Assembly (NCBI GenBank): GCA_012838385.1
Contig: DUPL01000062.1
Span: 1-41,939, forward strand
DNA from: Clostridiaceae bacterium
GTDB lineage: Bacteria > Bacillota > Clostridia > UBA1212 > DUPL01
DNA length: 41,939 bases
Reading direction: 5' to 3'
Below, piece after piece: positions 7,188 to 11,187 of this stretch. Each line of letters starts with the position of its first letter. Position 1 is the stretch's first letter. Below the pieces are notes generated by a model. That model saw only the letters and a list, made by a program, of their open reading frames with translations. It did no database searches and was not told the DNA's origin. The position numbers and the translations under genes were made by a program.

Positions 7188-7264
7188 TGGCGTGCCCAGC
7201 AGGAATTGAACCCACAACCTTTTGGTCCGTAGCCAAACGCTCTATCCAGTTGAGCTATGGGCAC
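7188..7264 (-). tRNA. tRNA-Arg (anticodon ACG)
   Basis: Reading the minus strand, GTGCCCA (7264-7258) pairs with TGGGCAC near the 3' end to form the acceptor stem. GCTC/GAGC forms the D stem, TTTGG/CCAAA the anticodon stem around the loop CTACGGA (anticodon ACG), and GTGGG/CCTGC the T stem around TTCAATT. The gene ends GCCA, so CCA is encoded; length 77. Expressed from its own promoter and closed by its own terminator. Confidence 0.96.
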
Positions 7265-7277
7265 ATCGCACTATATA

Positions 7278-7306
7278 ATAATACTCTTATTATTACTTTT
7301 TGTCAA
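7278..7306 (-). promoter_or_regulatory. promoter of tRNA-Arg
   Basis: On the minus strand TTGACA (7306-7301), 17 bases, TATTAT (7283-7278). The predicted transcript start is a few bases before the tRNA 5' end at 7264. Confidence 0.85.
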
Positions 7307-7401
7307 GAAAAAATGCTTCCATTATGGCTGAACGAATTCATAATTTATTACATGAATTACATTAAAATTAAAAAAAGTTTGAAGTTTTTATGATTTACCT
7401 A

Positions 7402-7430
7402 TTCACAAATTTGAAAATTAATGTTATTAT
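7402..7430 (+). promoter_or_regulatory. candidate promoter of the Spo0A-like tandem genes
   Basis: TTCACA (7402-7407), 17 bases, TATTAT (7425-7430). It leaves a leader of about 85 bases before the GTG at 7522. I see no exact TGTCGAA (0A box) in this intergenic region. Confidence 0.5.
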
Positions 7431-7521
7431 AGTTATCAGCTCACTTTGTATTACCATATATTACATATTCGCAATAACATTTGTAACACTGAGCACTTAC
7501 AAAGGATAAAAGGTGATTTGA

Positions 7522-8319
7522 GTGTATGAAAAAGTTATTGAGATTGTAATAGCTGATAGTGATACAAATTTTATTAACACTTTTTGTGAATATGCGAAAG
7601 GAGAGATAGGTGTTTCCGTTGTTGACTACGTTAACAGTGGACAAGATGTTATACCATCAGTAAAAAGAAATGATCCGGATGTATTGATATTGGACGCCTT
7701 ATTACCTGTGGTAGATGGGCTCGGTGTATTAAGAAGGTTGCAGCACCAGACTTACAACAAACCAATAACCATCATGACTTCAAACTTTTCACAAGACATT
7801 TATGTCCAAACAGCAATGTCTCTGGGTGCGGATTACTACTTGCTAAAACCTGTAAACTTTGATTTCTTATTTGAACAAATAAGGTTTCTTACGAGAGGAA
7901 CCCGAACAAGCTTACCAAGCGGTTTAAAAACGCAAGGAGTAACATCCCTTTTGTTTGATAGTAAGGAACTCTCTGAAGAAATAACAAAGATTCTACACCA
8001 ATTGGGAATACCTGCACATCTCTTTGGACACAACTATTTGCGGGAAGCCATACTGATGGTTGTACATGACAGAACTCTGGCAACCAAATTAAGCAAGACC
8101 GTTTACCCGGTCATAGCAAGGAAATATGGAAAGAGCGCTGCGAGTGTTGAAAAAGCTATGCGAAATGCTCTGGATATTGCATGGGAGCGTGGAAGAACGG
8201 ACTTGTTAAACGAGCTTTTTGCATATACAATAAATATCAACAAGGGACGGGCTACAAATTCAGAGTTTATTGCACTGATAGCAGACAAACTTAGCCTCAA
8301 GTATTCAGGACACTCTTAG
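7522..8319 (+). CDS. Spo0A-like response regulator, paralogue 1 (receiver largely intact)
   Basis: 265 residues with the full Spo0A plan: receiver (about 5-125), variable linker, and Spo0A C-terminal DNA-binding domain (about 150-262). The receiver keeps Asp12 (IADSD; the second acidic residue of the usual DD is Ser), the phosphoacceptor Asp58 (VLILDALLP), Thr86 and Lys109 (LLKPV), so phosphorylation is plausible. The C-terminal domain follows Spo0A closely: ITKILHQLGIPAHLFGHNYLREAI, YPVIARKYG, a recognition-helix segment SAASVEKAMRNALDIAW, then ATNSEFIALIADKL. Recognition-helix changes relative to Spo0A (VERAIRHA becomes VEKAMRNA) suggest altered operator preference. GTG start with AAAGGTG seven bases upstream. 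First of three tandem genes spaced 16-17 bases apart. It may be a paralogue rather than the master Spo0A, because the genes normally beside spo0A are absent. Confidence 0.9.
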   Translation: MYEKVIEIVIADSDTNFINTFCEYAKGEIGVSVVDYVNSGQDVIPSVKRNDPDVLILDALLPVVDGLGVLRRLQHQTYNKPITIMTSNFSQDIYVQTAMSLGADYYLLKPVNFDFLFEQIRFLTRGTRTSLPSGLKTQGVTSLLFDSKELSEEITKILHQLGIPAHLFGHNYLREAILMVVHDRTLATKLSKTVYPVIARKYGKSAASVEKAMRNALDIAWERGRTDLLNELFAYTININKGRATNSEFIALIADKLSLKYSGHS

Positions 8320-8335
8320 AGGAAGGAGGGTTTCT

Positions 8336-9202
8336 TTGGAGAAAGACAATTTAAGTTTGGTAATTGCACTAGATGTTAATAGCGCACAATACTATAGCGA
8401 GCTTCATAAACTTCTGTCGTACATAAAAAACATATCGATTACAGGTGTTTTTAATGATGTAGACAGTGTTCTAAAGCTAATGGAAGTACAGCACACCGAT
8501 GTGTTGGTTGTGGATTGTGCTTTGTTTTATCATGGTCTTAATGAGATTATTCAGAATGCTCATGACCACAATTTGGATACATACATAATTGAATTTCACG
8601 AGAACAGGAAGAGTGAAACAGGCTTTGACGCATATCTGTACAAGCTTACAAAATGCTTTAATCTTACTCAAATAATCCAAGGCAATGGACAGACAAAAAC
8701 AATACCAAGACAAATTGATACAAAGCTGGACAATTATTCATTATACATGGACTACCTGTTGAATGACAGACATAACACAAGCTGTGTTTGTGACGTAAAC
8801 GAACCTGTAAAACTCGATGAAATCAAAAGAATACAAGACGGTATTACGTATCTATTTAAATTGCTAGGTGTTCCCACACACCTGAAAGGTTACATGTATC
8901 TTAAGGCTGCAGTAGAAATGCTGTATGTCAACCCCCACAGATACAATGAACTAAAACATTCCATGTACAAAATATTATCTTTTAAGTTTCAAACAACACA
9001 AATAAGAATAAGCAAAGGCATGAGACTTGCTGTTCTGCAGACGCTTCAAAAAGGAGATGCTGACGTTCTGCAACAGCTGGGCTTCAGAAAGTATACCATT
9101 ACTGAAATTGGCAATGATGAACATATAAACAACCTGCCTTCAACCTACTGTTTTGTTGATGCGTTGGTAAGCGAATTGTATAGAATTCTTCATGAACACT
9201 AG
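8336..9202 (+). CDS. Spo0A-like protein, paralogue 2 (diverged DNA-binding helix)
   Basis: 288 residues; the same order of domains but much altered. The receiver-like part keeps Asp13 (IALDVN) and Asp60 (VLVVDCALF), but the KP motif and flexible-loop signature are not recognisable. The C-terminal domain is identifiable from GVPTHLKGYMYLKAAVEML (compare Spo0A GVPAHIKGYxYLREAI). The recognition-helix segment reads QIRISKGMRLAVLQTLQ, with almost none of the VERAIRHA contact residues left, and the usual TNSEFI stretch is replaced. It probably does not bind standard 0A boxes and may act by heterodimerising with its neighbours, or bind another site. TTG start with GGAAGGAGGG five bases upstream. 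Confidence 0.8.
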   Translation: MEKDNLSLVIALDVNSAQYYSELHKLLSYIKNISITGVFNDVDSVLKLMEVQHTDVLVVDCALFYHGLNEIIQNAHDHNLDTYIIEFHENRKSETGFDAYLYKLTKCFNLTQIIQGNGQTKTIPRQIDTKLDNYSLYMDYLLNDRHNTSCVCDVNEPVKLDEIKRIQDGITYLFKLLGVPTHLKGYMYLKAAVEMLYVNPHRYNELKHSMYKILSFKFQTTQIRISKGMRLAVLQTLQKGDADVLQQLGFRKYTITEIGNDEHINNLPSTYCFVDALVSELYRILHEH

Positions 9203-9219
9203 ATGAAAGGATTGATACG

Positions 9220-9981
9220 ATGTCAATAGATGCAAAGATAATAATTGCTTACACACACCTTGGAACGACAGCTGAGTTTTTAAGAAGGATAATGGCTGAA
9301 AATGTGTTAAAAGTTGTCGCTTGTGTTAGTTCTGGGGAAAAGGTTTTATCACTGGTAAGGAAATACAAACCCGATTTTCTTGTTTTGGATTCAGCCCTGA
9401 CAGGAGTATGCGGGCTTGATATTCTAAGGCAAATATCGGCTCAAATTGAAGATCGACCGTTTATTATAATGTACTGTGAAAAACAGAACGACATATACTG
9501 GCAGCTAGCATATAGATACTCGGCTGATTTGATTTTGGAAAAACCAGCCGACCCTGCCGGTTTGATAGAAAAGATATATACATATTTAACTAGCAAACAA
9601 GCCCCTATATGCATAGACGACTGCGATTTTACAAGCAGATGTCTGGAAGTGAAAGTCACAAAAGTTCTTTACACCCTAGGACTTCCCCCCAATTTCAAAG
9701 GTTTTCATTATCTACGTCATGCACTTATACTTGTTGCACAAGATAGCGAAAAGCTGTTCTCCGTTACAAAAATACTTTATTCTCAAATAGCCGAACAATT
9801 CGGAGTATCCAACCGCAGTGTTGAACATTCAATACAAACCGCCATACAATCCATATGGAATTCATGTAATTTCGAAAATCTAAAAGAAGCTCTAGGCTTC
9901 ACAATAAACACCAATCAATCCCCCACAAATGTGGAATTCATTTCACTTTTATCCGACGCAATAAGACTGAATATGATTTAA
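9220..9981 (+). CDS. Spo0A-like protein, paralogue 3 (receiver without its acidic pocket)
   Basis: 253 residues. The receiver has Asp57 (FLVLDSALTG) and the conserved lysine (ILEKPAD), but the Mg2+-binding acidic pair is replaced by IAYTHLG, so normal phosphotransfer is unlikely. The C-terminal Spo0A-type domain is clear: VTKVLYTLGLPPNFKGFHYLRHAL, ILYSQIAEQFG, recognition segment NRSVEHSIQTAIQSIW, then PTNVEFISLLSDAIRL. ATG start behind AAAGGA. It ends 5 bases from the end of the convergent paralogue 4, and there is no terminator between them. Confidence 0.87.
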   Translation: MSIDAKIIIAYTHLGTTAEFLRRIMAENVLKVVACVSSGEKVLSLVRKYKPDFLVLDSALTGVCGLDILRQISAQIEDRPFIIMYCEKQNDIYWQLAYRYSADLILEKPADPAGLIEKIYTYLTSKQAPICIDDCDFTSRCLEVKVTKVLYTLGLPPNFKGFHYLRHALILVAQDSEKLFSVTKILYSQIAEQFGVSNRSVEHSIQTAIQSIWNSCNFENLKEALGFTINTNQSPTNVEFISLLSDAIRLNMI

Positions 9982-9985
9982 GTAA

Positions 9986-10768
9986 TTATCCGTTGAGTTC
10001 CCGTAGAATATCTGTAAAACAGGATATAATAACTGAATTTGTTGGTCTGTCATCAAACCGATACTTAATTCCAAACTTGGACAAGGGTTCCAGGCGGTTC
10101 GTTTGCCAAACCTTGGACACAGCATGCCTAATTGCCCTTTCCACACTTTCATCGCTTACATTGTACCTGTTTGCAATAACAGGATAAATATCCTTGGAAA
10201 GACTTCCTCCCCTTATTTCAAGCAGTGTCATAATAGATGCGTCACGCAAGTATAAAAAACCCTTGTGCTTCGGATTAAAGCCACAATTGACAAGAAGTTT
10301 TGTTGCCTGCCTGTACATTTCAATTGGAAACTCCGCATGGTCAAATATGGAGATCTTTGATTTTGTCTCCACATCCGTCATGCCATGCTGTATAACCAAA
10401 TTGATGTGCTTTATTACCTCTTCTTTGTTTAACGTCTTGTCTACGAAAAAAACATTCTCATATTTCCCAATATCCTTGCATTTATATATGTCACTGCCTG
10501 CAAAAACAATGGTTGTTCCATTGTATTCTGCTCTTTCAATTTCATTTTTAAGTTGCCTGCAATCCACCTCAATAAACGAGTCGTCGATTATTACTAAATC
10601 AGAATCTAGTTCTACTGCCATGGGGAAAGCTTCTTTGAGTTTTTCTGCGAAACCTAGGTTTTTAATAGTATGATGCGAGATTATATATGATACAAACTCT
10701 TTAAAAAAATCTGATTCTGGTAGCGCGATTATAATATTTAGCGGTTTGGTAACACCAGAATTTTGCAT
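9986..10768 (-). CDS. Spo0A-like protein, paralogue 4 (receiver decayed, recognition helix conserved)
   Basis: 260 residues. The receiver-like half has IALPESD where the acidic pair should be and LVIIDDSF around the phosphoacceptor position (Asp62/63); Lys follows in FVDKTL. The DNA-binding half keeps the Spo0A recognition segment nearly exactly: SDESVERAIRHAVSKVW, preceded by KHKGFLYLRDASI and YPVIANRYN, followed by RPTNSVIISCFTDIL. This protein is therefore the one most likely to bind 0A-box-like DNA, but without phosphate control. ATG start behind GGAGG, 18 bases after the XRE gene, with which it forms a two-gene operon. Confidence 0.87.
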   Translation of the reverse strand: MQNSGVTKPLNIIIALPESDFFKEFVSYIISHHTIKNLGFAEKLKEAFPMAVELDSDLVIIDDSFIEVDCRQLKNEIERAEYNGTTIVFAGSDIYKCKDIGKYENVFFVDKTLNKEEVIKHINLVIQHGMTDVETKSKISIFDHAEFPIEMYRQATKLLVNCGFNPKHKGFLYLRDASIMTLLEIRGGSLSKDIYPVIANRYNVSDESVERAIRHAVSKVWQTNRLEPLSKFGIKYRFDDRPTNSVIISCFTDILRELNG

Positions 10769-10786
10769 TGATAAAAACCTCCATGA

Positions 10787-11101
10787 TTACTCAAACTTGT
10801 CATTCTCAGCAACGCTTGAAGCTTTCTTATCCCTGCTGCGGTAAATCTGCCCGTCTCCTCCCTTGTTAATCTCGTTCCAAAACTCCTGTAAAAGGTTCTT
10901 ACCCAAAATTCTTACGAAACCAGCAAGTTCTTGATCCGTTATGTACCTGTATCCTTTCTCGATCTTGCTTATTTGAACACGCGAGAGCATTATACCATCA
11001 AGTTGAAGCTTTGCTGCCAATTGTTCCTGCGTCATATTCGCAGCATTCCGGGCATGTTTTATTAAATTGCCACAGATGTTCATTGGATAATGATTGCTCA
11101 C
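10787..11101 (-). CDS. XRE-family helix-turn-helix regulator
   Basis: 104 residues with a Cro/C1-type HTH at about residues 10-68: NLIKHARNAANMTQEQLAAKLQ, then SRVQISKIEKGYRYITDQELAGFVRILG. The short charged tail holds no recognisable second domain. GTG start with AAGGGGG five bases upstream. It precedes Spo0A-like paralogue 4 in the same operon. A small XRE protein paired with a Spo0A-type regulator next to polysaccharide genes recalls the SinR/Spo0A control of matrix genes in Bacillus, but this is only an analogy. Confidence 0.9.
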   Translation of the reverse strand: MSNHYPMNICGNLIKHARNAANMTQEQLAAKLQLDGIMLSRVQISKIEKGYRYITDQELAGFVRILGKNLLQEFWNEINKGGDGQIYRSRDKKASSVAENDKFE

Positions 11102-11160: not shown

Positions 11161-11187
11161 AGGGCAAAATTGTTCCCACAGGGAACA
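11161..11187 (-). terminator. hairpin after the flippase gene: terminator, possibly also an operator
   Basis: TGTTCCC-ACA-GGGAACA (11171-11187) is a 7-bp perfect inverted repeat. On the minus strand it follows the flippase stop and is followed by ATTTTG, so a terminator is the simplest reading. It also lies 70 bases upstream of the XRE start and could be a repressor site. Confidence 0.55.

Follow-up and report, generated by a model that had tools for sequence, protein, structure and literature searches.

Spo0A is regarded as a single, phosphorylation-driven switch that is conserved in all spore formers. What, then, is the meaning of four proteins with Spo0A-type C-terminal domains lying side by side in one genome? 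The question is raised by contig DUPL01000062.1 of a Clostridiaceae bacterium (assembly GCA_012838385.1; GTDB lineage Bacteria; Bacillota; Clostridia; UBA1212; DUPL01), of which positions 1 to 41,939 were analysed (the window, 41,939 nucleotides). A first reading of the letters alone (the initial annotation) had described three tandem and one convergent Spo0A-like gene together with an XRE regulator, and matches to PF08769 (Spo0A_C) and HTH_3 confirmed all five genes at their positions. All four Spo0A-like open reading frames are intact, and a genome-wide search revealed no further Spo0A_C match in the source genome (2.57 Mb, 92.5% complete). We labelled these genes P1 to P4 and the fifth one XRE; P4 and XRE lie on the minus strand. 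Our results indicated that P1 is Spo0A itself, and we infer, at even confidence, that P2-P4 together with XRE serve as an accessory module modulating the output of Spo0A. The five genes are as follows.

7522..8319, plus strand: P1, the sole Spo0A orthologue (265 amino acids, GTG start; PF08769 E=6e-34; TIGR02875 250.6 bits)
8336..9202, plus strand: P2, a diverged Spo0A paralogue (288 amino acids, TTG start; PF08769 2.5e-13; TIGR02875 63.7 bits)
9220..9981, plus strand: P3, a diverged Spo0A paralogue (253 amino acids; PF08769 4e-28; Response_reg 5.8e-13; TIGR02875 127.1 bits)
9986..10768, minus strand: P4, a convergent Spo0A paralogue (260 amino acids; PF08769 5.8e-21; TIGR02875 81.0 bits)
10787..11101, minus strand: XRE/HTH_3 regulator (104 amino acids; PF01381 9.1e-10)

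A protein was counted as a Spo0A orthologue when it carried a receiver and Spo0A_C and scored above the TIGR02875 cut-off of 200 bits. In the genome-wide scan only P1 passed, while P2, P3 and P4 all stayed below. In the C-terminal-domain tree P1 clustered with the single canonical Spo0As of the order's other genera (support 99/95), a grouping that was weaker in the full-length tree (84/63). The usual site of spo0A is recN-spoIVB-[spo0A]-cinA, though linkage to spoIVB is customary rather than required. The source genome showed the order recN-spoIVB-cinA with spo0A missing there (genes named from sequence), whereas recN-spoIVB-spo0A-cinA was intact in a genome of the same order (G003), indicating that spo0A was relocated. 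An assembly gap could be ruled out as the reason, since a single contig carries spoIVB and cinA with 97 bp between them. Judged by score, tree and gene order, P1 is the genome's only, vertically inherited Spo0A, no longer situated behind spoIVB; the cluster is thus spo0A with three satellites and not four extra paralogues. The initial annotation had proposed that its multi-partner circuit would fail if one of the four proteins were the genome's only Spo0A. P1 is that protein, and this alone does not exclude such a circuit. Furthermore, spoIIAA, spoIIGA, spoIIE and a spoIIIA-type operon were all present in the genome, so the source organism is likely to form spores.

That Spo0A is normally single-copy held for the true Spo0A but not for its DNA-binding domain. 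Within the class, 318 genomes had a Spo0A_C match of any kind; by hand count, about 124 of them carried at least two such proteins, and 17 carried at least four. In the other 16 genomes with at least four, the copy with the best score had no other copy within 8 kb. The unusual part is the clustering with spo0A itself, not the copy number.

The receivers of the four proteins differed in what they had lost. P1 retained D12, D58, the Ser/Thr and K109, just as the initial annotation had quoted for Asp12, Asp58 and Lys109, but its description as nearly intact has to be qualified, for the second acid of the acidic pair was lost (DD to DS). In the satellites this pair was replaced by LD (P2), YT (P3) and LP (P4), leaving an incomplete acidic pocket in all three, while the phospho-site Asp and the Lys were retained (in P3 D57 and K108; in P4 D62 and K111). 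P4 had been called fully decayed. This was wrong, because Asp62 and Lys111 are kept and the AlphaFold model predicted a complete (beta-alpha)5 receiver (pLDDT mostly 75-94) followed by Spo0A_C; what P4 had lost was the acidic pair. Erosion had gone furthest in the receiver of P2, which was modelled without helix alpha4. The C-terminal domains of the P2 and P4 models matched solved Spo0A structures, the closest to P4 being PDB 1fc3/1lq1. Taken together, the receivers of P2-P4 are probably not phosphorylatable in the normal manner. The residues therefore agree with the earlier idea of active and inactive partners, P1 holding D12, D58 and K109 and the others having no complete pocket; the partnership itself, the competition and the control by XRE are steps that we infer. 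In four other genomes of the order, Spo0A itself has another residue in place of the phospho-site Asp (Glu in G015 and G025, Gly in G020, Asn in G026), and all four kept their sporulation genes.

The recognition helices varied as well: VEKAMRNA in P1, ISKGMRLA in P2, VEHSIQTA in P3 and VERAIRHA in P4. VERAIRHA was nearly invariant among the canonical Spo0As of the class sample, and the initial annotation was correct that P4 keeps it and P2 has lost it. Genomes with the order-type Spo0A showed an order-wide shift towards a VEKAIRTA-type helix, with H218 changed to T or N in 14/14 and R214K in 12/14. Upstream of spoIIGA, the sense-strand 0A core TTCGNC was found in 10/10 order-type-Spo0A genomes (15 sites vs 2.7 expected), and upstream of spoIIE in 11/13 (20 sites vs 2.3 expected). 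The specific contacts of Spo0A are G2, C4 and G5 of TGTCGAA (PMC3485338), and the 0A cores of the order keep these positions. Compared with Spo0A of the B. subtilis / C. difficile type (PF00072 with PF08769), P1 is alike in its domain order, its phospho-site Asp and Lys, its passing TIGR02875 and the 0A boxes at spoIIG and spoIIE. It differs in having no spoIVB linkage, in the DD to DS and VERAIRHA to VEKAMRNA changes and in the two paralogues that follow it; the VERAIRHA helix that it lacks is not required by the TIGR02875 model.

Are the satellites working genes? Within the genus two genomes were compared, the source and G001 (contig JAAYLF010000272.1). In G001, P1-P2-P3 and the convergent P4 recurred in equal order and spacing (17, 17, 4 bp), and the XRE gene stood at the contig end adjoining the same flippase gene, which is consistent with the source arrangement. 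The cluster is hence not absent from its close relatives, an absence that the initial annotation, together with a lack of transcription, had named as fatal to its idea. A contig scan of other genomes returned this sister contig and two distant proteins, nothing else. By Nei-Gojobori counting, the ratios of nonsynonymous to synonymous substitution (dN/dS) against G001 were 0.034 for P1, 0.091 for P2, 0.063 for P3 and 0.158 for P4, at a dS of about 0.5-0.7. In P2 and P4, the C-terminal domains were tighter than the receivers (dN/dS 0.03 and 0.10, respectively). This purifying selection in all four genes indicates that P2-P4 are working, maintained genes. P1 shares only about 15-33% identity with them and they sit on long branches; P2-P4 are old paralogues. 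The phylogeny suggested earlier thus placed P1, but neither the C-terminal nor the full-length tree gave a root for P2-P4, owing to the long branches. G+C was flat across the cluster and gave no support for horizontal acquisition.

The gaps of 16 bp between P1 and P2 and 17 bp between P2 and P3 suggest that P1-P2-P3 apparently form one operon, and XRE, 18 bp upstream of P4, is probably co-transcribed with it. Three further features surround these genes.

7402..7430, plus strand: promoter-like sequence before P1-P2-P3, TTCACA-17-TATTAT with TG before the second hexamer (consensus scan only)
11171..11187, no strand: perfect palindrome TGTTCCCTGTGGGAACA 5' of the XRE gene, GTTC-N7-GAAC, a candidate auto-operator
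7188-7264, minus strand: tRNA-Arg gene, which separates an M23-like peptidase gene from the cluster and lies about 257 bp 5' of P1

How could such an assembly modulate Spo0A? P1 would stay the phosphorylated sporulation switch, acting at the 0A boxes of spoIIG and spoIIE, while the activity of P2-P4 would be set by their amount rather than by phosphorylation. P4, with its ancestral VERAIRHA, would act at 0A boxes as a phosphorylation-independent competitor or co-binder, its level being set by the XRE protein, perhaps autoregulated. P2 and P3, whose helices are altered and which would be produced along with P1, would be partners of P1 or binders of other sites. Competition for 0A boxes or the formation of mixed dimers is plausible.

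The XRE family was detected at E<1e-12 in 14/14 order-type-Spo0A genomes vs 0/15 others of the order, counts that are not independent because the genomes share ancestry. A search of PDB sequences with XRE gave no relative at E<=0.001. TGTTCCCTGTGGGAACA was identical in G001, and GTTC-N7-GAAC was also found 5' of the XRE genes in G019 and G026. However, this pattern was not enriched in the genome (8 forward sites vs 14 for the control pattern), which spoke against it as the mark of an XRE regulon and left it a candidate auto-operator only, through which XRE may set the level of P4. Binding of XRE to the TTTCCC palindrome of spo0A and spoIIA, described below, was also considered and found unsupported, as XRE upstream regions are generally without that palindrome. 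Small XRE repressors of the SinR type adjust sporulation entry. XRE resembles them as a small, single-helix-turn-helix protein adjoining a sporulation regulator, with possible autoregulation; it differs in that no SinI-like partner was noticed, though an antagonist was not specifically examined.

Several observations weigh against the modulating module. The DNA-reading helix residues are changed in P2 and P3, so these two may make no contact with 0A boxes. A box search upstream of P1 and XRE was negative for 0A boxes and hence gave no sign of Spo0A feedback on the cluster; neither a 0A box nor the TTTCCC motif occurred in 7265-7521 upstream of P1. Only 4-5 of the 14 genomes had their XRE gene near one that encodes Spo0A_C, and conservation at the genus level was seen in two genomes, a small sample. 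Furthermore, 9 of the 11 order genomes without spoIIGA and true spoIIAA/spoIIE kept a Spo0A_C protein, indicating that diverged Spo0A_C proteins can serve non-sporulation roles. These nine (G009-G012, G014, G016, G018, G024 and G028) kept one or two diverged proteins, often the DNA-binding domain alone. The reverse was observed in G006 (92% complete), which has spoIIAA, spoIIGA and spoIIE and no Spo0A_C match, reflecting either an assembly gap or a spore former that has no recognisable Spo0A.

One alternative ranks not far behind the modulating module, and we consider it possible, if somewhat doubtful: P2-P4 would be regulators with their own regulons and signals, without action on the Spo0A output, and their spot beside spo0A would be a leftover of tandem duplication or reflect shared timing. 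The low identity to P1 with long branches, the altered helices of P2 and P3, the persistence of Spo0A_C proteins in relatives without sporulation genes and the several unlinked Spo0A_C proteins in other genomes of the class all speak for it. However, P4 carries the full ancestral helix, P2 and P3 follow P1 with gaps of 16-17 bp in both species, and several genera of the order likewise have a paralogue next to spo0A. Such a paralogue, divergent to spo0A, was found in G002, G008, G013, G017 and G027, and an XRE-Spo0A_C pair 2.5-3 kb from spo0A in G019 and G026. In two related genomes, an XRE gene overlaps a short Spo0A_C gene at this distance from spo0A (L044:8417-9192 and L045:6484-7312), which looks like a reduced XRE-P4 pair.

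A much less probable explanation is that P4 and XRE are a unit derived from a prophage or another element that landed by the spo0A operon near tRNA-Arg at 7188-7264. Phage-borne Spo0A_C proteins do exist (PMC10294663), XRE repressors are common in phages, and the nearest relatives of P4 in our set were canonical Spo0As of other groups and not P1. However, the phage homologues have no receiver (PMC10294663) while P4 is modelled with one, an XRE gene and a Spo0A paralogue recur beside spo0A in G013, G019 and G026, the base composition is flat, and no integrase or transposase was recognised by eye among the window's listed open reading frames, not all of which were scanned. That P2-P4 are functionless duplicates heading to pseudogenes, as the lost pocket residues and the missing receiver helix of the P2 model could suggest, is the least credible reading and is contradicted by frames intact in two species at dS 0.5-0.7, by dN/dS of 0.06-0.16 and by C-terminal domains in P2 and P4 that are more constrained than their receivers.

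How do the satellites relate to systems already known? P2-P4 resemble the atypical, phosphorylation-independent response regulators with pseudo-receivers in their receiver sequence or fold, their incomplete acidic pocket and their DNA-binding output; they differ in their output domain, Spo0A_C, and in the position of their genes around spo0A. With the phage-borne Spo0A_C proteins (PMC10294663) they share a Spo0A DNA-binding domain outside the main Spo0A, but they are proteins of 253-288 amino acids with receiver regions, encoded on the chromosome beside spo0A. In the open-licence literature we found no description of pseudo-receiver Spo0A_C proteins around spo0A, or of such a cluster of Spo0A paralogues. 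If the modulating module is true, a moved spo0A with changed DNA-reading residues and apparently non-phosphorylatable siblings would show a master regulator split into cooperating or competing parts. The cluster also offers natural variants for testing the importance of individual Spo0A residues.

A wider proposal, which we put forward tentatively and consider unlikely as a whole, is that sporulation entry has been rewired across the order: Spo0A would have left the spoIVB locus, its pocket and helix would be eroding, and control would have partly passed to phosphorylation-independent paralogues, a co-occurring XRE and a new operator, the four-gene cluster of this genus being the most elaborate case.

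The candidate for such an operator is a palindrome, ATTTCCCGGGAAAT, which most genomes of the order carry upstream of spo0A but which the source genus lacks at that place. In 300 kb from 12 order genomes the exact palindrome occurred 10 times, every one upstream of spo0A; as the DNA searched lay around Spo0A_C genes, the figure does not describe whole genomes. The sites mostly stood directly before a TTGACA-type promoter.

Sites of ATTTCCCGGGAAAT: L037:5076, L038:9204, L039:5829, L041:9457, L042:8121, L043:8813, L044:12180, L045:10427, L048:9154, L049:2092

Upstream of spoIIAA, TTTCCC repeats were found in 13/14 genomes (21 sites vs about 1 expected; L118 and other loci in L107-L122), and 0A boxes were not enriched there in the same genomes. 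In the source genus the motif was lost at spo0A and retained at spoIIAA. Across the whole source genome, TATTTCCCRR had 41 sites vs 35 for the control, indicating that the short motif alone is uninformative. ATTTCCCGGGAAAT/TTTCCC is a candidate new operator of sporulation entry, and it may be a more testable lead than the cluster itself.

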